A DNA stretch of 64,000 bases from Anaerolinea thermophila (GTDB taxonomy: Bacteria; Chloroflexota; Anaerolineae; Anaerolineales; Anaerolineaceae). Made by a program: the position numbers and the translations under genes. Positions 29,908-39,667 of this stretch are shown one piece after another. The notes below the pieces were generated by a model. It was not told the origin of the DNA. It searched no databases and worked only from the letters and a program-made list of their open reading frames with translations. Each line of letters starts with the position of its first letter. Position 1 is the first letter of the stretch. The stretch is from assembly GCF_020723905.1 (NCBI RefSeq), contig NZ_DYHZ01000009.1, positions 62,001 to 126,000 on the forward strand, read 5' to 3'.

Positions 29908-31080
29908 TTAACCGATGAAAATCCAGAGCAAAAACAACGCCATCAATGCCAGTTGACCGAACACCCCCAGAGCAAAGCCGGTCAGGCGTTTGAGGGGGGT
30001 ATCTGCCCACCAGCCCAGAGCGGCAAAAAGAGAAAAGCCCATTAAAATGTAGCGATTGTATGCGAACAGCGGATCGCGGGCATCCCCCAACCCAAGCGCC
30101 ATGAATAATACCAGCGCCTGAAATGCCAGCCACGAGGCGGGAATTTTCTTCCAGCCCCAGATCAAACTCCAGACGACCAGAAACAGAGCCACAGAATTGA
30201 TGACCCAGTCGGGGGAGGAAAGATGCTGTGGCAACAACATCAACCACTTAACCAGATTCGTCCACGGTGGAGCGGGATAGCGGAAAAATTCCTGCTCATA
30301 CGACTGTAAGAAGGACGGAAAGCCCTGCGAGACCCGCCATGCCCAGAACCATCCCACCCCCAGCGCAGGCATGCCTGCCACGCCCAGCACTGTCCAGCGC
30401 CAGGGATGCGTGTTCCGGCGGATAAACTGCACGGCTTCCACCAGCAAAATGACCGCAAGCGGCAGAGCCGTGCTATGCGTCAATCCTGCCAGCAGGGCGG
30501 TCACCGCGCTTCCCAGCCAGCGGCGTTTTCTCGCCAGAAAGACCGAAGCCAGCACCAGCGCCAGTTCCATGCTTTGCGGGTACAGAGCAAGGAAGAAAAA
30601 ACTGCTCGGGAACACTGCCAGCGCCAGCACACCGCGCCGGGCAATGGTGGTGTTAAAGGTATCTGCCAGCAGAGCATACAGCAGGATAAGCGCCGCCAGA
30701 TAGCCCAGGGTACTCACCACATACAGGGCTTCCAGCGTGCCCATACCGGTCAGTTGTGCCAGTACTCGCGCCGTCAGCGGGTACAGAGGAAAAAAGAGGC
30801 TCACCTTCTGAACGGAATAACCCTGTTCGGCGATGATCTGGTAAAAAATGGTATCCCACCGCTGCCAGACGCCGAACAAAGCCCCTCGCCAGCCCTGAAC
30901 CACAGGCTCCAGCCCTTCGTAGAAACGCATCCCCACGGGCGGAGGTAAGGGACGAATTCTCCACACCCAAAAGCCGATGAGATGCGACAGAAGGCGCATC
31001 CCCAGCCAGATGGGCAGAACAAACCGAACAACTTCAGGTAACTGATTCCAGCAGGAACGCAACCGGTTGAGCATAGCCAT
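29908..31080 (-). CDS. Membrane mannosyltransferase, PIG-V-like (GT-C fold)
   Basis: 390 aa with about ten hydrophobic helices. The PIG-V family region is visible near residues 70-110: FGVWQRWDTIFYQIIAEQGYS followed by LFFPLYPLTARVLAQLTG, including the WD motif whose Asp is expected to be catalytic in the first outer loop. Family members use polyprenyl-phosphate mannose to mannosylate lipids or glycans outside the membrane. No partner genes adjoin it; it converges on pfkA. Start ATG 31080 or 31074; the difference is trivial. Confidence 0.8.
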   Translation of the reverse strand: MAMLNRLRSCWNQLPEVVRFVLPIWLGMRLLSHLIGFWVWRIRPLPPPVGMRFYEGLEPVVQGWRGALFGVWQRWDTIFYQIIAEQGYSVQKVSLFFPLYPLTARVLAQLTGMGTLEALYVVSTLGYLAALILLYALLADTFNTTIARRGVLALAVFPSSFFFLALYPQSMELALVLASVFLARKRRWLGSAVTALLAGLTHSTALPLAVILLVEAVQFIRRNTHPWRWTVLGVAGMPALGVGWFWAWRVSQGFPSFLQSYEQEFFRYPAPPWTNLVKWLMLLPQHLSSPDWVINSVALFLVVWSLIWGWKKIPASWLAFQALVLFMALGLGDARDPLFAYNRYILMGFSLFAALGWWADTPLKRLTGFALGVFGQLALMALFLLWIFIG

Positions 31081-31177: not shown

Positions 31178-31206
31178 TTGACATCTGCATTCCTCTGCGC
31201 TACACT
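31178..31206 (+). promoter_or_regulatory. Promoter of the aromatic amino acid operon
   Basis: TTGACA (31178-31183), 17-bp spacer, TACACT (31201-31206). Predicted start near 31213, only about 5 nt before the leader-peptide ATG. Confidence 0.82.
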
Positions 31207-31217
31207 ATTGCCAACCT

Positions 31218-31295
31218 ATGTGCTCTTCTCGCGTTGCCTACTGGTTTTACTTTTATTCCGGCATCTCCCCGCGGACTGCCGGCGGCAGCGCTTAA
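31218..31295 (+). CDS. Attenuator leader peptide rich in Tyr/Trp/Phe
   Basis: 25 codons, ATG 31218 to TAA 31293. Codons 8-13 (31239-31256) read Tyr-Trp-Phe-Tyr-Phe-Tyr, six aromatic residues in a row covering all three aromatic amino acids; the full peptide has AYWFYFYS flanked by small and polar residues. It sits immediately after a consensus promoter and before a GC hairpin with a T-rich tail, then aroH. The arrangement is that of trpL/pheL-type leader peptides: a ribosome starved for an aromatic aminoacyl-tRNA stalls here and changes folding of the downstream RNA. No clear SD; the ATG is close to the predicted 5' end, so initiation may be leaderless. Assignment is by pattern only. Confidence 0.8.
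   Translation: MCSSRVAYWFYFYSGISPRTAGGSA
31258..31288 (+). promoter_or_regulatory. Attenuator regions 1 and 2 (pause hairpin / antiterminator strand)
   Basis: CCGGCA (31258-31263), directly after the aromatic codons, pairs with TGCCGG (31277-31282). Alternatively GGCGGCAG (31281-31288) pairs with CTGC..CGCC (31323-31332) of the terminator with a 2-nt bulge. A ribosome stalled at the aromatic codons would cover 31258-31263 and free the second strand for antitermination. Proposed by inspection, not by energy calculation. Confidence 0.55.
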
Positions 31296-31322
31296 CCGGA
31301 AGAGAACACCCCTCGAACGGAT

Positions 31323-31354
31323 CTGCGGCGCCAACGGCGCCGCAGTTTTCGTTT
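31323..31354 (+). terminator. Attenuator terminator upstream of aroH
   Basis: Perfect 10-bp stem CTGCGGCGCC / GGCGCCGCAG with AAC loop, followed by TTTTCGTTT. It lies between the leader peptide and aroH, so it must be bypassed for operon expression. Confidence 0.82.
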
Positions 31355-31376
31355 ATCTTACGTCTGGAGGCTGTTC

Positions 31377-31778
31377 ATGAGCATTCGCGGCATTCGCGGC
31401 ATTCGCGGCATTCGCGGCATTCGCGGCGCCACAACCATTGACGAAAATACCCCCGAAGCCATCCTGTCAGGCACCCGGGAATTACTGTTTGCTCTTCTGC
31501 AAGCCAACCCGACCCTCAAGCCCGAAGACATTGCCAGCGTGCTGTTCACCATGACCGAAGACCTCAACGCCGTGCATCCGGCGCTGGCAGCGCGTCAACT
31601 GGGCTGGGTGGATGTCCCGCTGATGTGCGCCCGCGAGATTGCCGTCCCGGGCAGTGTCCAGCGCTGTGTGCGCGTACTGATTCACTGGAATACCGACATG
31701 CCGCAGAACGCCGTGCGGCATGTCTATTTGCGCGAGGCGGTGACGTTACGTCCCGAGTATGCGAATTCTCCCAGATAA
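31377..31778 (+). CDS. aroH: Chorismate mutase, AroH class, with expanded IRG repeat at the N-terminus
   Basis: 133 aa. Monofunctional AroH-type trimeric chorismate mutase converting chorismate to prephenate: [59 protein letters not shown] and [14 protein letters not shown]-like C-terminus ([14 protein letters not shown]). The substrate-binding Arg equivalent to Bacillus Arg7 is Arg16 here because IRG is repeated five times (Bacillus has two). SD TGGAGG at 31365-31370. First enzyme gene of the aromatic operon, 28 bp before DAHP synthase. Confidence 0.93.
31382..31426 (+). repeat. In-frame 9-bp tandem repeat, five perfect copies
   Basis: Unit CATTCGCGG five times without mismatch, encoding Ile-Arg-Gly units at the start of AroH. 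Being a multiple of three, slippage changes peptide length without frameshift. Confidence 0.95.
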
Positions 31779-31806
31779 CGGTTTTTAGATTTCAGGAGGT
31801 GTGAAA

Positions 31807-32886
31807 ATGATGATCATCATGCGAGCCGATGCAACCCCAGAGCAAATCAGCCAGGTGGTGGCGCGTGTGGAGGCGGTGGGCTTACGGGCACATCTGTCTC
31901 ACGGGCAGGAACGAACCCTGATTGGTGCAATTGGCGATGACCGCACCGTTGACAAAGATCACTTCGCGGTACTCCCCGGTGTAGATCGGGTGGTGCCCAT
32001 CCTGCGACCGTATAAACTGGCATCACGCGAGTTCAGCCCGGAAAACACAGTGTTCCCGCTGGACGGCGTTTCCATTGGCGGGCAGGACATTGTGCTGATT
32101 GCCGGACCCTGCTCGGTGGAGAGCCGTTCTCAACTGCTGGAAATTGCTCAGGCGGTGCGCGAAGCCGGAGCGCATGCCCTGCGCGGTGGCGCGTACAAAC
32201 CGCGCACCTCGCCGTATGCTTTTCAGGGGCTGGGCGAAGAAGGGCTGGAACTGCTGGCAGAAGCGCGTGAAGTCACCGGTTTGCCCATCGTCACCGAGGT
32301 GATGTCGCCTGAGATGGTCCCGCTGGTGGCAAAATACGCCGATGTTCTGCAAATTGGCGCGCGCAACATGCAGAACTTTGCCCTGCTGCACGCCGCCGGA
32401 GAAAGCCAGCACCCCGTCCTGCTGAAACGCGGCATGAGCGCCACCGTTGAAGAACTGCTGATGGCGGCGGAGTACATCCTCTCGCATGGCAACCGCCGTG
32501 TGATTCTGTGCGAGCGCGGCATCCGCACCTTTGAAAACGCCACCCGCAACACCACCGACATTAACGCCATTCCGGTCATCAAGTCCCTCAGTCACCTGCC
32601 GGTCATCCTCGACCCCAGCCACTCCACCGGCAAATGGGAGTACGTCCTGCCCATTGCCCGCGCCGCCATTGCCGCCGGAGCAGACGGCTTGATTGTCGAA
32701 GTGCATCCGCATCCCGAGGAAGCCCTCTCGGATGGCGGACAGAGCCTCAAACCCGAGCGCTTTGTCGAACTGATTGAGCAGGTGCGCCGGATCGCCCGGG
32801 CGATTGGACGGGATGTGGCGCCATCCCCGCACCGCGAGGTACCCGTGACCACCCCCAGCGAACTCCCGGAGGCACACATCCAATGA
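31807..32886 (+). CDS. aroF: 3-deoxy-7-phosphoheptulonate (DAHP) synthase
   Basis: 359 aa from ATG 31807; GTG 31801 abuts AGGAGG and is too close. N-terminal ferredoxin-like regulatory domain of about 90 residues ([22 protein letters not shown]... IGAIGDD), then the TIM barrel: [102 protein letters not shown] and [13 protein letters not shown]. This is the Thermotoga/Bacillus-type class I-beta enzyme, first step of the shikimate pathway from PEP and erythrose 4-phosphate. The N-domain is where aromatic feedback inhibition occurs in this group. Confidence 0.94.
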
Positions 32887-33797
32887 GCGCGGAAAGCGAG
32901 GATGGTTTTGTCCGCTCCCTGCAGGTGCTCATCATTGGACTGGGATTGATGGGCGGATCGCTGGCGCTGGCACTGCGCGGCAAAGTACAGGCAGTGCTGG
33001 GCGTGGACACCCATGCGCCAACCCGCCAGCAGGCACTGGACCGCGGCGCGGTGGATGCAGTCAGCGCCGACCCTGCCGCACTGCTCCCTCAAGCCGATGT
33101 AATCGTGCTGGCAACACCGGTGCGGAGCATCCTGCGCCTGCTGGAGCAACTGCCTTCCCTGCATCCGGGCAGGGCGGTGGTTCTGGATGTGGGCTCGACC
33201 AAACGCGACATTGTTGAGGCAATGGCGCATCTGCCCGAGCGTTTTGACCCGCTGGGCGGGCATCCCATGTGCGGCAAAGAACATTCCTCTTTTGAACATG
33301 CCGAGGCGGACCTGTACCGCGGCGCCGTCTTTGCCCTGTGTCCGCTGGAGCGCACCTCTGCCCATGCCCGGCAGGTTGCCGAAAGCCTGGCGCGGGCGGC
33401 AGGCGCCTCTCCTTTCTGGCTGGATGCCGATACACACGACCGCTGGGTAGCCGCCACCAGTCACCTGCCCTACCTGCTGGCAGGCGCGCTGGCTTCCAGC
33501 GTCCCCCCGCAGGCTGCTCCGCTGGCAGGACCGGGCTACCGCTCCACCTCACGGCTGGCGGCACAGCCTGCCGACCTGATGCTGGAGGTGCTGGCATCCA
33601 ACCGCGATCATCTGCTCACGGCGCTGTCCCGCGCCCGGCAACATCTGGACCTTCTGGCGCAGACGCTGGAAGCGCAGGACTGGCAGACCCTGCGGACATT
33701 GCTTGAGGACAGCGCCCGGCAACGCGAAACCCTTCTCAATTCAGGTGGAGATCCTCATGAAACTCATCGTGTACCCCGGCGCGCCCCTGCGCGGTGA
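32883..33797 (+). CDS. tyrA: Prephenate dehydrogenase
   Basis: 304 aa. NAD(P) motif [19 protein letters not shown] near residue 15, [49 protein letters not shown] (usual GHPMAGSE) and [19 protein letters not shown]. It makes 4-hydroxyphenylpyruvate for tyrosine. There is no ACT domain. Its ATG overlaps the DAHP synthase stop, and its 3' end overlaps aroA by 41 bp, an unusually long overlap. Confidence 0.9.
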
Positions 33798-35082
33798 AGC
33801 ACAGGTTCCCGGCGATAAATCCATCTCCCATCGCGCTGCCCTGTTTGCCGCCATGGCGCAGGGCGAAAGCCTGATTGACAACTTCCTTGACTCCGGCGTC
33901 ACCCGCGCCATGCTGAACGCGCTGAGCGCGCTGGGTGTGACATGGCAACTGGACGGTACCCGTCTGCAGGTACGCTCTCCAGGCTGGAACCACTGGCAAC
34001 CGCCCGCCGTGCCGCTCTTCTGCGGCAACTCCGCCACCACTCTGCGCCTGCTGGCAGGCGCACTTGCCGCCGCAGGCATTCCCGCTGTGCTGGACGGTAG
34101 CCCGGGATTGCGCCGCCGTCCCATGGAACGCATTGTCGAACCCCTGCGCGCCATGGGCGTACCCATCGCCGCCGCCGATGGAGGCGGTGCGCCGTTGCAT
34201 CTGGATGCCCGCCCGGCTGGCGCTCTTCTGCGCGGGATGAAGCACACCCTGCCGGTTGCCAGCGCCCAGGTGAAAACCTGCCTTCTGCTGGCAGGACTGG
34301 CGGCAGATGCGCCTGTTGAAGTCATCGAGCCGACCCTCTCACGCGATCACACCGAACGGATGTTTAAAGGAATGGGCATTGCGCTGGAAGTGTCTCGCCT
34401 GCCAGACGGCAGTGCCCGGGTATGCCTGCATCCGCCCGGGCATCCGATCCCACCTCTGCACGGCACCATCCCGGGGGACATTTCTGCGGCGGCGTTCCTG
34501 CTGGTAGCGGCGCTGATTGTCCCCGGATCGGATGTGCTCATCCGCGGGGTCGGGCTGAACCCCACCCGCACCGGTCTGCTGGAAGCCCTCAGGGAGATGG
34601 GCGCAGAGATTGAGGTGGAGAACCCCCGCACAGTGTTTGGCGAGCCGGTAGGCGACCTGCACGTGCGCGCCTCTTCCCTGTGGGCAGGGCAGGTGCAGGG
34701 CGAGCGGGTGGTGGCAATGATTGACGAATTTCCGGCGTTTGCCGCCGCCGCTCTGTACGCGCAGGGCATCAGCACCGTCCACGACGCGCAGGAACTGCGT
34801 TACAAGGAATCCGATCGCATTGCCGCACTGGTGCAGGAAGTGCGCGCCCTGGGCGCCGCCGCCGAAGAACACCCCGACGGCTTTACCATCCACGGCGGAA
34901 GTTTGAAAGGAGGAACCGTCAACCCGCACGGCGATCACCGCCTGGCAATGGCACTGGCGGTTGCCGGACTGGCGGCTTCTCAAGCGGTAACCATTGAGCA
35001 GGCAGAAATCATTGCCGAATCGTTCCCGGCATTTGTCTCCACCCTGCAGGGACTGGGGGCGCATCTGGAGGTAATTCCATGA
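33757..35082 (+). CDS. aroA: 3-phosphoshikimate 1-carboxyvinyltransferase (EPSP synthase)
   Basis: 441 aa from ATG 33757, with SD GTGGAG inside the tyrA 3' end. Motifs: VPGDKSISHRAALFAAMAQGES (residues about 17-38), FCGNSATTLRLLAGAL, GSPGLRRRPMERIVEPLRAMG, SAQVKTCLLLAGL, EPTLSRDHTERML-like EPTLSRDHTERMFKGMG, DISAAAFLLVAAL, and RYKESDRIAALVQEVRALG. It adds enolpyruvate from PEP to shikimate 3-phosphate. The active-site segment GNSATT has Ser where many enzymes have GNAGT, as in class II-type sequences. Confidence 0.95.
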   Translation: MKLIVYPGAPLRGEAQVPGDKSISHRAALFAAMAQGESLIDNFLDSGVTRAMLNALSALGVTWQLDGTRLQVRSPGWNHWQPPAVPLFCGNSATTLRLLAGALAAAGIPAVLDGSPGLRRRPMERIVEPLRAMGVPIAAADGGGAPLHLDARPAGALLRGMKHTLPVASAQVKTCLLLAGLAADAPVEVIEPTLSRDHTERMFKGMGIALEVSRLPDGSARVCLHPPGHPIPPLHGTIPGDISAAAFLLVAALIVPGSDVLIRGVGLNPTRTGLLEALREMGAEIEVENPRTVFGEPVGDLHVRASSLWAGQVQGERVVAMIDEFPAFAAAALYAQGISTVHDAQELRYKESDRIAALVQEVRALGAAAEEHPDGFTIHGGSLKGGTVNPHGDHRLAMALAVAGLAASQAVTIEQAEIIAESFPAFVSTLQGLGAHLEVIP

Positions 35083-35987
35083 GTGCTCTGCAACTGGGGC
35101 TGATGGGCTTCCCGCTGGGTCACAGTTACTCTCCGCTCCTGCACCGTGCGGCACTGAACACCATGGGCATAGAGGGAGAATACCGCCTTTACCCTGTTCC
35201 CCCTCTGCCGGAAGGCAGGCAGGCATGGCAGACAATTTTTACCCGTCTGCGCGCCGGTTCCCTGCACGGTCTGAACGTCACCATCCCCCACAAACAGGCG
35301 GTAATGGCTGAAGTGGACGTCTGCGAGGACGAAGCCCGCATCATCGGGGCGGTGAACACTCTGGGCAGGGACACTCACGACCGTCTCTGGGGCGCCAATA
35401 CCGATGCGCCGGGCTTTCTGCGCGATCTGTACGCGCAGTTGGGAAACGCCCTGCCCGCCTGCGGCGGCAGGGCGCTGGTGCTGGGGGCAGGCGGAGCGGC
35501 GCGCGCCGTGGTTTTTGCGCTGATTCAGGCAAACTGGGAGGTGTGGGTGTGCGCCCGCCGGGGAGAACAGGCACAATTCCTGAGGGATGCCCTGCGGGCA
35601 AGTCTGCCCTCTGCCGCACTGGACGCGCTGGAGGGCATTCCCCCCCTCGGGGGGCTCCCGCCGCGCCTGAATTTGCTGGTCAACGCCACCCCGCTGGGCA
35701 TGTCCCCGTATGCAGAAGCCATGCCCTGGGACGCTTCGCTCCCCCTCCCGGAGGGGACGGCAGTGTACGATCTGGTGTACAATCCCCGGCAGACGCGCCT
35801 GATGACCTTTGCCCGTTCCTGCGGCGCGCCAGCCGCCGGAGGGCTGGGAATGCTGGTGGAACAGGCAGCCCTGGCGCTGGAACGCTGGACCGGACAGACA
35901 GCGCCTCGCTCTGCCATGTGGCAGGCGCTGGAAGAACTCCCGCCCGCAGAAGACTCTGCCCGGGACAAACCCATGGAGGAAGGTTGA
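35079..35987 (+). CDS. aroE: Shikimate 5-dehydrogenase
   Basis: 302 aa. GFPLGHSYSPLLHRAALNTMGIEGEY binds shikimate; LNVTIPHKQAVM carries the catalytic Lys; GAVNTLGR, GANTDAPGF, and nucleotide motif ALVLGAGGAARAVVFAL follow, with VNATPLGMSPYAEAMPW and YDLVYNPRQTRL. It reduces 3-dehydroshikimate with NADPH. ATGA overlap with aroA; aroC starts 2 nt after its stop. Confidence 0.94.
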   Translation: MSALQLGLMGFPLGHSYSPLLHRAALNTMGIEGEYRLYPVPPLPEGRQAWQTIFTRLRAGSLHGLNVTIPHKQAVMAEVDVCEDEARIIGAVNTLGRDTHDRLWGANTDAPGFLRDLYAQLGNALPACGGRALVLGAGGAARAVVFALIQANWEVWVCARRGEQAQFLRDALRASLPSAALDALEGIPPLGGLPPRLNLLVNATPLGMSPYAEAMPWDASLPLPEGTAVYDLVYNPRQTRLMTFARSCGAPAAGGLGMLVEQAALALERWTGQTAPRSAMWQALEELPPAEDSARDKPMEEG

Positions 35988-35988
35988 T

Positions 35989-37164
35989 ATGCCCTTACGT
36001 TTTCTCACCGCTGGCGAATCGCATGGACCTGCGCTGGTTGTTATTCTGGAAGGCATTCCGGCAGGATTGCCGCTGAATGAAGAAATCATCGCCCGCGACC
36101 TTGCCCGCCGTCAGCACGGGATGGGCGCCGGAGCGCGCATGAAACTGGAGCACGACCGCGCCCGCATCCTTGCCGGGGTCATGGCAGGGGAAACCACCGG
36201 CGCACCGCTGGCTCTGCTCATCGAAAACGCCGACCATGCCCGCTGGAAGGGGAAAGACATTGCGCCCTTCACCACCCCGCGTCCCGGACACGCCGACTTG
36301 AGCGGAGCGGTGAAGTACGGCTACCGCGATCTGCGACCGGCGCTGGAGCGGGCATCGGCGCGGGAAACCGCCGCGCGAGTGGCGGCAGGTGCGGTGTGCC
36401 GCCATCTGCTGGAGCAGTTTGGGGTGCAGGTGGGCGGATATGTGGTCTCCATCGGCAAGGTGGAGAGCCGTCTGGAGGGTATGCCCTACGGCGAACGCAT
36501 CGCCCGCGCACGGGAATCGGATGTATCCTGCCCGGATGCGCAGGCGGCAGAGGCAATGCGCTCTGCCATCCGTGAGATCATGCAGGCACGCGATACCCTG
36601 GGTGGGGTGATCGAGGTGGTGGCGTTGAATGTACCCCCGGGGCTGGGCTCGTTTGCGCAGTGGGATCGGCGGCTGGAAGCGCGCATCGGCGCGGCGCTGT
36701 TAAGCGTGCCCGCCATCAAAGGGGTGGAGTTTGGGGATGCCTTTGCCAACACCCGCCTGCCCGGCACGCAGGCGCATGACCCCATCCGTCTGAAAGGCGA
36801 CGCCATCGTCCGCACCGGCAACCGCAGTGGCGGGCTGGAAGGGGGCATCAGCACCGGTGAGCCGCTGGTGGTGCGTGCGGCAATGAAACCCATTGCCACC
36901 ACCCTGACCCCTCAGCAGACTGTGGATCTTTCTCAAGGGGTGGAAACCGAGACGCGCTATGAACGCTCCGACTTCTGCCCGGTACCGCGGGCAGTGGTCA
37001 TACTCGAAGCCATGCTGGCGTTCGTGCTGGCAGATGCCCTGCTGGAAAAACTGGGCGGCGACTCGCTGGCAGAGATTCGCCCGCGTTTTGAGACCCTGCG
37101 GCAAATGCGCTTATCGGATCTGCCCATGGAAGGCACACCGCACCGCTTCTGGGAGGACACATGA
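35989..37164 (+). CDS. aroC: Chorismate synthase
   Basis: 391 aa from ATG 35989, with GGAGGAAGG upstream; the longer frame overlaps aroE and is unrelated. MPLRFLTAGESHGPALVVILEGIPAGLPL, RRQHGMGAGARMKLEHDRARILAGVMAGETTGAPLALLIEN, RPGHADLSGAVKYGYRDLRPALERASARETAARVAAGAV and GNRSGGLEGGISTGEPLVVRAAMKPI are the family signatures. It uses reduced FMN to eliminate phosphate from EPSP. The aroKB start overlaps by 4 bp. Confidence 0.95.
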   Translation: MPLRFLTAGESHGPALVVILEGIPAGLPLNEEIIARDLARRQHGMGAGARMKLEHDRARILAGVMAGETTGAPLALLIENADHARWKGKDIAPFTTPRPGHADLSGAVKYGYRDLRPALERASARETAARVAAGAVCRHLLEQFGVQVGGYVVSIGKVESRLEGMPYGERIARARESDVSCPDAQAAEAMRSAIREIMQARDTLGGVIEVVALNVPPGLGSFAQWDRRLEARIGAALLSVPAIKGVEFGDAFANTRLPGTQAHDPIRLKGDAIVRTGNRSGGLEGGISTGEPLVVRAAMKPIATTLTPQQTVDLSQGVETETRYERSDFCPVPRAVVILEAMLAFVLADALLEKLGGDSLAEIRPRFETLRQMRLSDLPMEGTPHRFWEDT

Positions 37165-38732
37165 GCGCGGGCGAGTGGTACTTCATTTATGGTATGCCGG
37201 GGGCAGGCAAAAGCACGCTTGGCAAAGCCCTGGCGGAGCAACTGGAACTGCCTTTCTTTGATCTGGATGCGCAGATTGTTGCTCAAGCCGGGGTGGACAT
37301 TCCCACCCTCTTCGCCCGTGAAGGGGAAAGCGGCTTCCGCGCCCGCGAAAGAGAAACTCTGCGCGCTTTATTAATGGAAGAAAAAAGCGGCGGGGTGGCG
37401 GCGCTGGGCGGCGGCGCTCTTCTCAATGAGGAGAACCGCCATCTGGTGGAATCGCACGGCACGGTGCTCTGTCTGCGCGCTGAAACGGACGTCCTGCAGG
37501 CGCGCATGACAAACGCGGCGGGAGCCCGTCCGCTGGTGGCAGGAGAGGACTGGCGGGAACGCCTGCGGGCGTTGCTGGAACGCCGCGCAGAGCATTACGC
37601 TTCCTTTCCTCTGCAACTGGATACCAGCCATCTTTCACCGGAGAAAGCCGCAGCGGAAGCCCGGCGCCTGCTGGGGGCTTTCCGCCTGCGCGGCATGGGC
37701 GCGCCATACGACGTGCGCGTGCTTCCCGGCGGTCTGGATGCCTGCGGCAGTCTGATGCGTCGCCGCGGCTTGAACAGCCCGGTGGCGCTGGTCAGCGATA
37801 CGCACGTCATGCCCGTCCACGGTGAGCGCCTGCGCGCCGCGCTGGAACAGGCGGGCTACCGCGTCGTTCCCGTTACCATCCCGGCGGGGGAGGAACATAA
37901 AACCCTGCCTTCGCTGGAATCTTTGTGGAGCGCCTTTCTGGCGGGCGGGCTGGAACGCGGCAGTACGGTAGTAGCGCTGGGCGGTGGGGTGATCGGCGAC
38001 CTGGCAGGCTTTGCCGCCGCAACCTTCATGCGCGGAATTCGCTGGGTGAGCCTGCCCACCAGTTTGCTCGCCATGGTGGATGCCAGTCTGGGCGGGAAAA
38101 CCGGCGCCGACCTGCCACAGGGCAAAAACCTGATCGGGGCATTTCATCCGCCTGCGCTGGTGCTGGCGGACCCCGAAACGCTGAACACCCTGCCGGAGGA
38201 GGAAGTCCGCGCCGGGCTGGCAGAGGTGGTCAAACACGGCATCCTTGCCGACCCGGCGCTCTTTGCCCTGTGCGAACAGGGCTGGGAGGCAGTCCGTCAG
38301 CGCATGGCAGAGGTTATCCGCCGGGGGATGGCAGTAAAAGTGGGTTTCATCGAACGCGATCCATATGAAAAAGGCGAACGGGCGGCGCTCAACCTGGGAC
38401 ACACAGTGGGACATGCCATCGAGCGCGCCAGCGGATACCGCCTGCGCCACGGGGAAGCCGTTGCCATCGGGCTGGTGGTGGAAGCACAACTGGCGGAGCG
38501 GCATGGGATTGCCCGCAAAGGGCTGGCAGAGCGCATCGCCGCCTGTCTGCGGGGGCTGGGCTTACCGGAGCGCATCCCTGCCGGGCTGGATGAGGCGGCT
38601 TTCCATGCCGCGCTTCAGGTAGATAAGAAAAACGCCGGAGGGCGGGTACGCTTTGCCCTGCCGGAGGATATCGGCGCGTACCGTGTGGGGGTGGCACTGG
38701 AGGTGGACTGGTCGGAGTTTCTGGCAGGTTGA
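37161..38732 (+). CDS. aroKB: Bifunctional shikimate kinase / 3-dehydroquinate synthase
   Basis: 523 aa fusion. Residues 1-170 are shikimate kinase: P-loop GMPGAGKSTLGKALAE, FDLDAQIVAQAGVDIPTLFAREGESGFRARE, ALGGGALL. Residues about 175-523 are dehydroquinate synthase: PVALVSDTHVMPVHG, IPAGEEHKTL, ERGSTVVALGGGVIGDLAGFAAATFMRGIRWVSLPTSLLAMVDASLGGKTGADLP, GKNLIGAFHPPALVLADPETL, metal ligands in GLAEVVKHG(Glu) and LNLGHTVGHAIE plus HGEAVAIGL. The two activities are not consecutive in the pathway. Last gene of the operon; no 3-dehydroquinate dehydratase (aroD/aroQ) is present. Confidence 0.95.
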   Translation: MSAGEWYFIYGMPGAGKSTLGKALAEQLELPFFDLDAQIVAQAGVDIPTLFAREGESGFRARERETLRALLMEEKSGGVAALGGGALLNEENRHLVESHGTVLCLRAETDVLQARMTNAAGARPLVAGEDWRERLRALLERRAEHYASFPLQLDTSHLSPEKAAAEARRLLGAFRLRGMGAPYDVRVLPGGLDACGSLMRRRGLNSPVALVSDTHVMPVHGERLRAALEQAGYRVVPVTIPAGEEHKTLPSLESLWSAFLAGGLERGSTVVALGGGVIGDLAGFAAATFMRGIRWVSLPTSLLAMVDASLGGKTGADLPQGKNLIGAFHPPALVLADPETLNTLPEEEVRAGLAEVVKHGILADPALFALCEQGWEAVRQRMAEVIRRGMAVKVGFIERDPYEKGERAALNLGHTVGHAIERASGYRLRHGEAVAIGLVVEAQLAERHGIARKGLAERIAACLRGLGLPERIPAGLDEAAFHAALQVDKKNAGGRVRFALPEDIGAYRVGVALEVDWSEFLAG

Positions 38733-38738
38733 TGCGCC

Positions 38739-39191
38739 CTATTCCATTTCCAGACGCTCAAACGCCACTTCCAGACTCTCGATAAAGAGGTCTCCGCCCA
38801 GGGCATTCAGGCTGGAAAAGAGATGCGTGACCGGGCGGGCGCGGTGGAAACGCCACGTCAGCACCACGTTGCTCAAATCTTCGCTGAGCAACTGCACGGT
38901 GACATGGCGCAAATTGCCGGTACTGCCGTTGCGGAACTCATTCCACCACTGATACCAGTCCAGTGAACCGTTGACGGTACGGCGCAGGATGAGGGTGCCG
39001 TACTCCACGCCGGTTTGCACCTTTTGTGGTTCGGGGCTCCTGCTGTTGCCGGTGCGGTAGTCAGCAACCACCAGGCGCGCCTCGGGGAAAACGACTTCCA
39101 GCAAGCCGGTATTCGGCGACCAGACCTCGCCGGTACCCATATCCACGGTAAACCGGCAGGAAGGATAGGGGGTATCGCGGTAAATGGACAT
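38739..39191 (-). CDS. Phage tail tube-like protein (gp19 family), orphan
   Basis: 150 aa from ATG 39191 (GGGAG upstream). The central and C-terminal sequence fits the T4 gp19/contractile-injection-system tube family: VEYGTLILRRTVNGSLDWYQWWNEFRNGSTGNLRHVTVQLLSEDLSNVVLTWRFHRARPV, SSLNALGGDLFIESLEVAFERLEME. In that family the LxRG..YxWW, PxxxxxxSLNAxxxDxxIESLELxxE pattern is diagnostic. No sheath, baseplate, spike or lysis gene lies nearby. It probably shares a promoter with the 144-aa membrane protein upstream (gap 41 bp). Could be a domesticated tube protein with a structural role. Confidence 0.75.
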   Translation of the reverse strand: MSIYRDTPYPSCRFTVDMGTGEVWSPNTGLLEVVFPEARLVVADYRTGNSRSPEPQKVQTGVEYGTLILRRTVNGSLDWYQWWNEFRNGSTGNLRHVTVQLLSEDLSNVVLTWRFHRARPVTHLFSSLNALGGDLFIESLEVAFERLEME

Positions 39192-39232
39192 CGGGTTTGC
39201 TCCCTTCAAGAGGATAACAGGAAAAAGAGTTT

Positions 39233-39667
39233 TTACAGACTCCAGAGGAGAATCAGGTGGAGAATCCAGCCACCTAACAGGAGGACGAACAGCGCGCCAA
39301 ACAGCAGGTGCAGGTTGCGGCTGTCCAGAGCGGCACTTTCCTGAAGCGCAGGCAGGCACAGTTGGGTTTCCATCTCACGGCATGCCCGCTGACGCGCGCG
39401 GATGCGCCGGAGCAGACGGCGGGCGCTCCACATCATCAGCAGGGTGAGCAGGATACCGGTCAGGTTCAGAGCGGTAAGCAGGGGGCGAAAAGCCGGGTTG
39501 CCCAGCGCGCTCACGGCGGGAATGAACAGCACCAGCACGGCGAGCAGGATCAGGGAAACGCTCCACATCAACAGGCGTTCCTCATGCCGGAGTGCCTCCA
39601 GCGTGCGCGTATAGCGATCCTGCAGGGGCTGAGCGGCGGGTTCGCGGATGCGCGAAAGAGGGTGCAT
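39233..39667 (-). CDS. Membrane protein of unknown function
   Basis: 144 aa from ATG 39667 (AAGGAAGGAG upstream). Three hydrophobic helices (about residues 34-55, 62-85 and 122-143) separated by a basic cytosolic segment (SARRLLRRIRARQRACREME). No known motif. It precedes the tail-tube-like gene on the same strand and may be cotranscribed with it. Confidence 0.7.
   Translation of the reverse strand: MHPLSRIREPAAQPLQDRYTRTLEALRHEERLLMWSVSLILLAVLVLFIPAVSALGNPAFRPLLTALNLTGILLTLLMMWSARRLLRRIRARQRACREMETQLCLPALQESAALDSRNLHLLFGALFVLLLGGWILHLILLWSL

Follow-up and report, generated by a model that had tools for sequence, protein, structure and literature searches.

A predicted Phe/Tyr-responsive transcription attenuator before the aro operon of Anaerolinea thermophila and related Anaerolineae

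Results

The aro operon and its leader

On its plus strand, the window (the whole 64,000-nucleotide stretch of Anaerolinea thermophila DNA that was analysed, whose numbering is used throughout) carries an operon of aromatic amino acid genes preceded by a promoter, a short open reading frame and an intrinsic terminator. The features, with the evidence for each, are these.

31178..31206, plus strand: sigma70-type promoter, TTGACA-N17-TACACT (direct reading; comparison of 59 leaders)
31218..31295, plus strand: leader peptide ORF, 25 aa, MCSSRVAYWFYFYSGISPRTAGGSA (direct reading; counterparts in relatives)
31239..31256, plus strand: regulatory codons Tyr-Trp-Phe-Tyr-Phe-Tyr (direct reading; run composition of 59 leaders)
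31258..31263, plus strand: segment 1 (A), CCGGCA (covariation and folding)
31277..31292, plus strand: segment 2 (B), TGCCGGCGGCAGCGCT (duplex energies, covariation, folding)
31323..31349, plus strand: intrinsic terminator (direct reading, terminator finder, covariation)
31366..31370, plus strand: Shine-Dalgarno GGAGG of aroH (direct reading)
31377..31778, plus strand: aroH, monofunctional chorismate mutase, the operon's first gene (TIGR01796 above cut-off)
31801..38732, plus strand: DAHP synthase (aroF), tyrA, aroA, aroE, aroC and fused aroK-aroB (best NCBIfam hits; those naming tyrA and aroE score below the curated cut-offs)

In the window sequence, the promoter has its -35 box TTGACA at 31178-31183 and, after a 17-nt spacer, its -10 box TACACT at 31201-31206. 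The leader ORF starts with the ATG at 31218, stops at the TAA at 31293-31295 and contains the six aromatic codons TAC TGG TTT TAC TTT TAT. The terminator is made up of a 5' arm (segment 3, 31323-31332), an AAC loop, a 3' arm (segment 4, 31336-31345) and a T run (31346-31349); its stem, CTGCGGCGCC-AAC-GGCGCCGCAG at 31323-31345, has 10 bp, 9 of them G-C, and TTTTCGTTT lies directly 3' of it. Direct reading thus confirms the promoter, the 25-codon ORF, the six aromatic codons and the 10-bp terminator with its T run, all of which had been listed in the initial annotation. That annotation overstated the operon in calling it complete: dehydroquinase is missing from it, and the genome's 3-dehydroquinate dehydratase match lies on another contig, outside the aro operon.

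The named sequences that match AroH most closely (68% identity) carry the labels Anaerolineae and Anaerolineales. Near its start, the 9-mer ATTCGCGGC occurs in five tandem copies (31383-31427) that encode a repeated Ile-Arg-Gly motif; several relatives have one or two copies, and the array looks like a recent expansion. Adjoining the operon on the minus strand (38739-39356) is a gene for a protein like the tube proteins of phage tails and contractile injection systems (TIGR02241, E 2.1e-13, below cut-off). Elsewhere, a cobalamin riboswitch lies at 2011-2153 (RF00174, 67.3 bits); it is the sole Rfam match in the window, and no T-box (RF00230) was found at the aro operon.

Conservation of the leader among relatives

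AroH matches were found in 68 of 151 genomes (the window's own and 150 relatives), and conservation was measured on these, the other 83 having no AroH match. With two partial matches (G137, G129) excluded, the upstream DNA of 66 aroH loci was examined. At 59 of the 66, window included, an ATG mini-ORF with at least four aromatics in eight codons is followed by a terminator before aroH, so the conservation that the initial annotation had proposed as a check is borne out. Four further genomes (G031, G008, G115, G144) have the leader before aroF instead of aroH, and three (G057, G109, G127) have neither a leader nor a match to the covariance model described below. An ATG ORF with at least five aromatics in eight codons was found at 58/66 loci on the forward strand, against 1/66 reverse complements and 5/1320 shuffled sequences. 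The terminator finder placed a terminator 23-45 nt past the leader stop in 59/59, and its weakest real score was reached by only 8 of 590 shuffled stretches.

A covariance model, R1, was built from 47 of the 59 leaders, the other 12 having been dropped before alignment for differing run or hairpin lengths. R1 matches 65 of the 151 genomes (own and relatives, those used for training among them). In wider searches it matches 48 of 396 genomes of the class and 24 of 301 of the phylum. Twenty of these last 24 belong to the same order or closer, including G438, whose match we read as false, and four weak matches lie outside the class. In the class search we examined 23 weaker matches, which come from G438 and from 20 genomes spread over nine other families. 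Seventeen precede aroH and/or aroF (at L195 after another ORF), with no start codon found for the aromatic frame at three of the 17 (L182, L195, L197); four precede aspartate kinase; one, L189, runs to the contig end and has a leader nearly that of L188; and the match in G438 (L194) looks false. Among 31 named AroH loci, R1 matches all seven labelled Chloroflexi, Anaerolineae or Caldilineaceae and none of the 24 others; L123, L128 and L129 are weak, L124 is partial at a contig end, L122 equals training genome G003 in score and position, and L126 equals training genome G114 in score. A plain ORF scan of the same 31 loci gave leaders at L122, L125 and L126 and possible ones at L128 and L129. Genome G018 (L097) has two tandem DAHP synthase genes, each preceded by an aromatic leader of its own with an R1 match.

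The window element has no Rfam match at gathering score, and raising the limit to E 5 gave two matches only (E 0.16 and 0.35), to unrelated families and far below their gathering scores. What is new here is a leader family without an Rfam match, recurring among relatives in the order and also in nine other families of this Chloroflexota class.

Alternative pairings of the leader RNA

Segment 1 starts at or just past the last aromatic codon, segment 2 lies within the last leader codons, and segment 3 is the terminator 5' arm, whose adjoining loop also joins the 2:3 pairing. CCGGCA at 31258-31263 is complementary to TGCCGG at 31277-31282, as first described, and this 1:2 helix covaries. For the antiterminator, GGCGGCAG (31281-31288) had been proposed to pair with the terminator 5' arm; the best pairing that we found in the window is a different one, of 31278-31291 with 31325-31338, and comprises 31278-31281:31335-31338, 31284-31286:31330-31332 and 31289-31291:31325-31327. 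The predicted fold of 31209-31360 is 3.9 s.d. better than those of its shuffles, with 0/200 shuffles as good.

Covariation was analysed in the 47 aligned leaders. Taken together, the terminator and the 1:2 helix have 91.0% of cells paired and double changes at 13 of 18 pairs, each equalled by 0/500 shuffles, and a covariation score of 0.383 against 0.166 in shuffles (0/500); there was no excess of further pair types in these two helices (243/500 shuffles). The 1:2 helix has 84.5% of cells paired and 5/7 pairs changed on both sides, and the terminator 95.1% and 8/11. The 2:3 columns are paired in 82.9% of cells versus 80.7% when shuffled and score 0.148 versus 0.120 (both 0/500); their double-change pairs, 4/12, are equalled by 156/500 shuffles. 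Sliding the 2:3 partners by -3 columns gave 6 double-change pairs and 25 such cells versus 11, with only 44.1% of cells paired. The covariation that would support the antiterminator is therefore modest.

Because the 2:3 register shifts between lineages, we also compared duplex energies over all 59 leaders, with relatedness retained. Cognate 2:3 duplexes average -20.7 kcal/mol versus -17.3 kcal/mol for permuted partners, and cognate 1:2 duplexes -11.1 versus -9.1 kcal/mol (0/5000 permutations in each case); the cognate 2:3 duplex lies more than 2 s.d. below that leader's own shuffled segment 2 in only 36/59.

All 59 leaders were also folded under masks, a check proposed in the initial annotation. 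With the codon run covered and segment 4 absent, 2:3 forms with at least five expected pairs in 59/59; with the ribosome at the stop codon, the terminator forms in 59/59 and 2:3 is absent; and the terminator also forms in 59/59 without a ribosome. The trp-type switch therefore holds while segment 4 is unmade. It does not hold at equilibrium: with the run masked and the terminator complete, at least five C:D (terminator) pairs form in 51/59, including the window, where 8.7 C:D pairs compare with 1.2 B:C pairs. Antitermination would therefore need co-transcriptional timing. In trp attenuation, too, antitermination is thought to rely on the order of synthesis.

Which amino acids the leader reports

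The initial annotation had the peptide report on Tyr, Trp and Phe together. The 462 run codons of the 59 leaders include 378 TT[TC]/TA[TC], 14 TGG, 1 TT[AG] and 0 TA[AG], counts that arise partly by construction, since runs were picked for aromatic density and stops are impossible within an ORF; for that reason the scarcity of TT[AG] and TA[AG] is not taken as separate proof. Sensing of all three amino acids on equal terms would fit the Trp codon in the window run and the TGG codons elsewhere, and we consider it unlikely given where these codons sit. Trp codons fall mostly toward the 5' side of the runs; at the three run positions nearest segment 1 they fill only 3 of 177 cells. In a stall model that assumes a ribosome front 12 nt beyond the first base of the A-site codon, a ribosome held at Tyr11, Phe12 or Tyr13 of the window leader covers segment 1 wholly or partly, while one held at Trp9, or likewise at Phe10, leaves it uncovered. 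Trp also appears to be served by other means: in the window's own genome a T-box (RF00230; L201 3008-3320) precedes trpE, with a specifier read as UGG in the alignment. T-boxes at gathering score occur at 8 of the 14 trpE loci examined; scanning the same 14 loci for a Trp-rich leader peptide gave a few short ORFs with at least two Trp or clustered aromatics, and none that was leader-like by eye. As the switch-proximal codons are Phe and Tyr and trpE has its T-box, the aro leader would mainly report Phe and Tyr, and most likely Trp has its own sensor.

A tnaC-type arrest of the nascent peptide, responding to free amino acid and not to a lack of charged tRNA, is a considerably more remote reading. 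It would suit a short peptide rich in aromatics, and in three relatives a tryptophanase/tyrosine phenol-lyase-like gene follows a Tyr-rich leader. To our knowledge, arrest peptides require fixed residues; in the aro leaders no such residues were found at fixed positions, Phe and Tyr interchanging freely within the runs of the 59 leaders and the order and length of the peptide varying. Past the run, the frame used for the C-terminal part differs between leaders, while the RNA of that part is still recognisable: the segment 2 core is in phase 0 in 33 of the 44 leaders in which a core can be recognised and in another phase in 11, so that the RNA, not the peptide, is selected there. The genes under control are, moreover, biosynthetic.

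Start of the leader transcript

The -10 box of the window ends 11 nt 5' of the leader ATG, and the transcript therefore probably begins only a few nt before that codon, judging from promoter position. A promoter scoring at least 9/12 lies upstream of 53/59 leaders, compared with 57/1180 shuffled regions. The -10 box is 6-12 nt before the ATG in 30/59 leaders, with 10 the commonest spacing, and 13-36 nt from it in 23 of the 59, so a near-leaderless start is not universal. No 4-base Shine-Dalgarno was found in the 15 nt scanned before 53/59 leader ATGs; a 5-base one occurs around the aroH start in 53/59, in an unmatched comparison that scanned 70 nt for aroH. As predicted from these spacings, leader ORFs that are often near-leaderless would be a second new aspect of the family.

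Another reading is that the leader acts mainly through translation, by reinitiation or by masking of the aroH ribosome-binding site. We hold this to be very improbable: aroH begins 81 nt after the leader stop and has a Shine-Dalgarno of its own, as such control would have it, yet a terminator with a T run intervenes in 59/59 by the finder, and anything between 5 and 100 nt separates that terminator from the AroH match.

Related leaders before other genes

Leaders with a run of Thr codons, most with internal Met codons (e.g. MTTTMMTTTPKRVAVASS), precede aspartate kinase at 18 loci (L098-L101, L106, L108, L109, L113, L179, L180, L192, L199, L236-L239, L243, L249). R1, trained on aro leaders only, found 12 of the 18, eight in the relatives and four in the class. 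A second model, R2, whose training set combined aro leaders with aspartate kinase leaders, added the other six among 15 further matches examined; nine of the 15 are not before aspartate kinase, one of them at 41.8 bits, and at lower scores R2 returns ordinary terminators. A similar scaffold carrying Thr/Met codons at aspartate kinase in relatives is a third new aspect. We found no aspartate kinase version in the window's own genome, where R2 is strong at the window element only (next match E 0.009). At L098 the next gene encodes aspartate-semialdehyde dehydrogenase, and at several other loci the next gene resembles it by eye.

It is conceivable, though on balance we lean against it, that one ancestral Anaerolineae scaffold of segment 2, spacer and terminator had its codons exchanged, to Phe/Tyr at the shikimate operon and Thr/Met at aspartate kinase; the Thr/Met leaders may instead have converged on a similar terminator without common descent. 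A shift of reading frame may have been an intermediate step in the exchange, since moving the frame one base downstream turns TAC-TAC-TAC (Tyr) into ACT-ACT-ACT (Thr). ACT makes up 48 of 130 Thr codons in the 18 leaders; in the longest frames downstream of them it makes up 74 of 574. The comparison is not independent because the leaders are related to each other, and a preference for rarer codons would also explain the excess. If the common scaffold is true, the entrances of two branched pathways would be served by it. The Phe/Tyr and Thr/Met leaders form a natural series for asking how attenuators change specificity.

At L104, L105 and L114, a Tyr-rich leader (e.g. MNFQILSAYAYYYYGKRNNVVPDFSRK) and a terminator-like hairpin stand before a tryptophanase/tyrosine phenol-lyase-like gene, an odd position given that the enzyme is catabolic.

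Discussion

The promoter, the ORF with its codon run, three alternative pairings, the terminator and the conservation of the arrangement at the same operon are observed by sequence, comparison and folding. We conclude that the aro leader very probably attenuates transcription by a ribosome-mediated mechanism, sensing charged Phe- and Tyr-tRNA, and Trp at most weakly, and so controls the operon from aroH through aroF to aroKB. The observation is real and the attenuation mechanism is probably right. The trp-type logic of the initial annotation is supported, as the mini-ORF and terminator are kept in relatives and masked folding is of the trp type. The reading as a plain terminator next to a chance or remnant mini-ORF can be dismissed: the weaker R2 scaffold matches are indeed such terminators, but the upstream 390-aa ORF is divergent (29908-31080, minus strand), leaving no evident plus-strand gene to terminate, and ORF and terminator recur together across the aroH loci with low controls.

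From these features we infer a transcript start, translation, stalling, read-through and an amino acid response, as follows. A ribosome would initiate at the ATG near the transcript 5' end. When Phe and Tyr are plentiful it would reach the stop codon and cover segment 2, in which case segments 3 and 4 would form the terminator and transcription would end before aroH. When Phe or Tyr is short, the ribosome would stall at the last aromatic codons and cover segment 1; during synthesis of segment 4 the freed segment 2 could then pair with the loop and 5' arm of the terminator, and with 2:3 formed, RNA polymerase would read through into aroH. Without translation, 1:2 would form, followed by the terminator.

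Such an attenuator would put the sensing of Phe and Tyr where the common aromatic pathway begins, in a genome with a T-box at trpE. Whether two tRNA-sensing mechanisms divide the work around a single branch point in this way is now directly testable. As is proposed for the aro leader, the T-box (RF00230) senses uncharged tRNA, which it binds directly.

The principle of attenuation is already known, and the Anaerolineae aro leader would sense a narrower range of amino acids (Phe/Tyr) than first claimed. The trpL and pheL leaders of Escherichia coli each respond to a single amino acid, control a terminal branch and have a Shine-Dalgarno-led leader ORF. With them (Rfam Trp leader RF00513) the aro leader shares the logic of 1:2, 2:3 and 3:4 pairings and the placing of the codons before segment 1. 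As in that class, we find a run of end-product codons in a short and putatively translated ORF, a terminator between the leader ORF and the first structural gene (59/59), and compensatory changes in both the conserved 1:2 hairpin and the 3:4 terminator (47/59 leaders). Mixed-codon attenuators are also established, among them ilvL and the thrL of E. coli (Thr/Ile). In thrL, too, one leader serves mixed products, with different codons, and thrL is the likely functional counterpart of the Thr/Met leaders before aspartate kinase. In Corynebacterium glutamicum, an aroR attenuator before aroF was reportedly described by Neshat et al. in 2014.

According to excerpts of a 2013 survey, Rfam at that time contained amino acid attenuators for His, Leu, Thr and Trp only, and their origin was placed in the gamma-proteobacteria (PMC3766115). 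For Chloroflexi or Anaerolineae, no aromatic attenuator appears in open-access titles and abstract beginnings among the matches listed, nor is one described in the available portions of PMC4833913, PMC1262725 and PMC3766115. Leaderless attenuator peptides have precedents in ilvL of C. glutamicum and trpL of Sinorhizobium meliloti, whose transcripts were measured to begin with the leader ATG or 1 nt away from it in the portions consulted (PMC11857589; PMC7298713); these leaders serve other amino acids in other phyla, and their starts are measured, whereas that of the aro leader is predicted. In Shewanella, a predicted regulatory RNA before aroF carries the table note 'Attenuator sensing tyr-tRNA', for which Camakaris et al. 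1980, a study of E. coli aroF-tyrA, is given as reference (PMC2659441). Tyr-tRNA sensing at the RNA level is thus proposed at aroF there as it is for the aro leader, in another phylum and, in the part of that paper available, with no leader peptide or codon run given.

A close counterpart is aroR of C. glutamicum, a leader peptide with Phe-Tyr-Phe before aroF at which stalling raises transcription and which, in the sections of the source at hand, responds to Phe and not to Tyr (PMC11802643); it is also noted in PMC4046766. The initial annotation's statement that the known attenuators of this type respond to a single amino acid apiece is therefore wrong. The two leaders resemble each other in kind, each being a mixed Phe/Tyr peptide before DAHP synthase; the Anaerolineae run is longer, the operon behind it comprises most of the common pathway together with tyrA, and it occurs in a different phylum.
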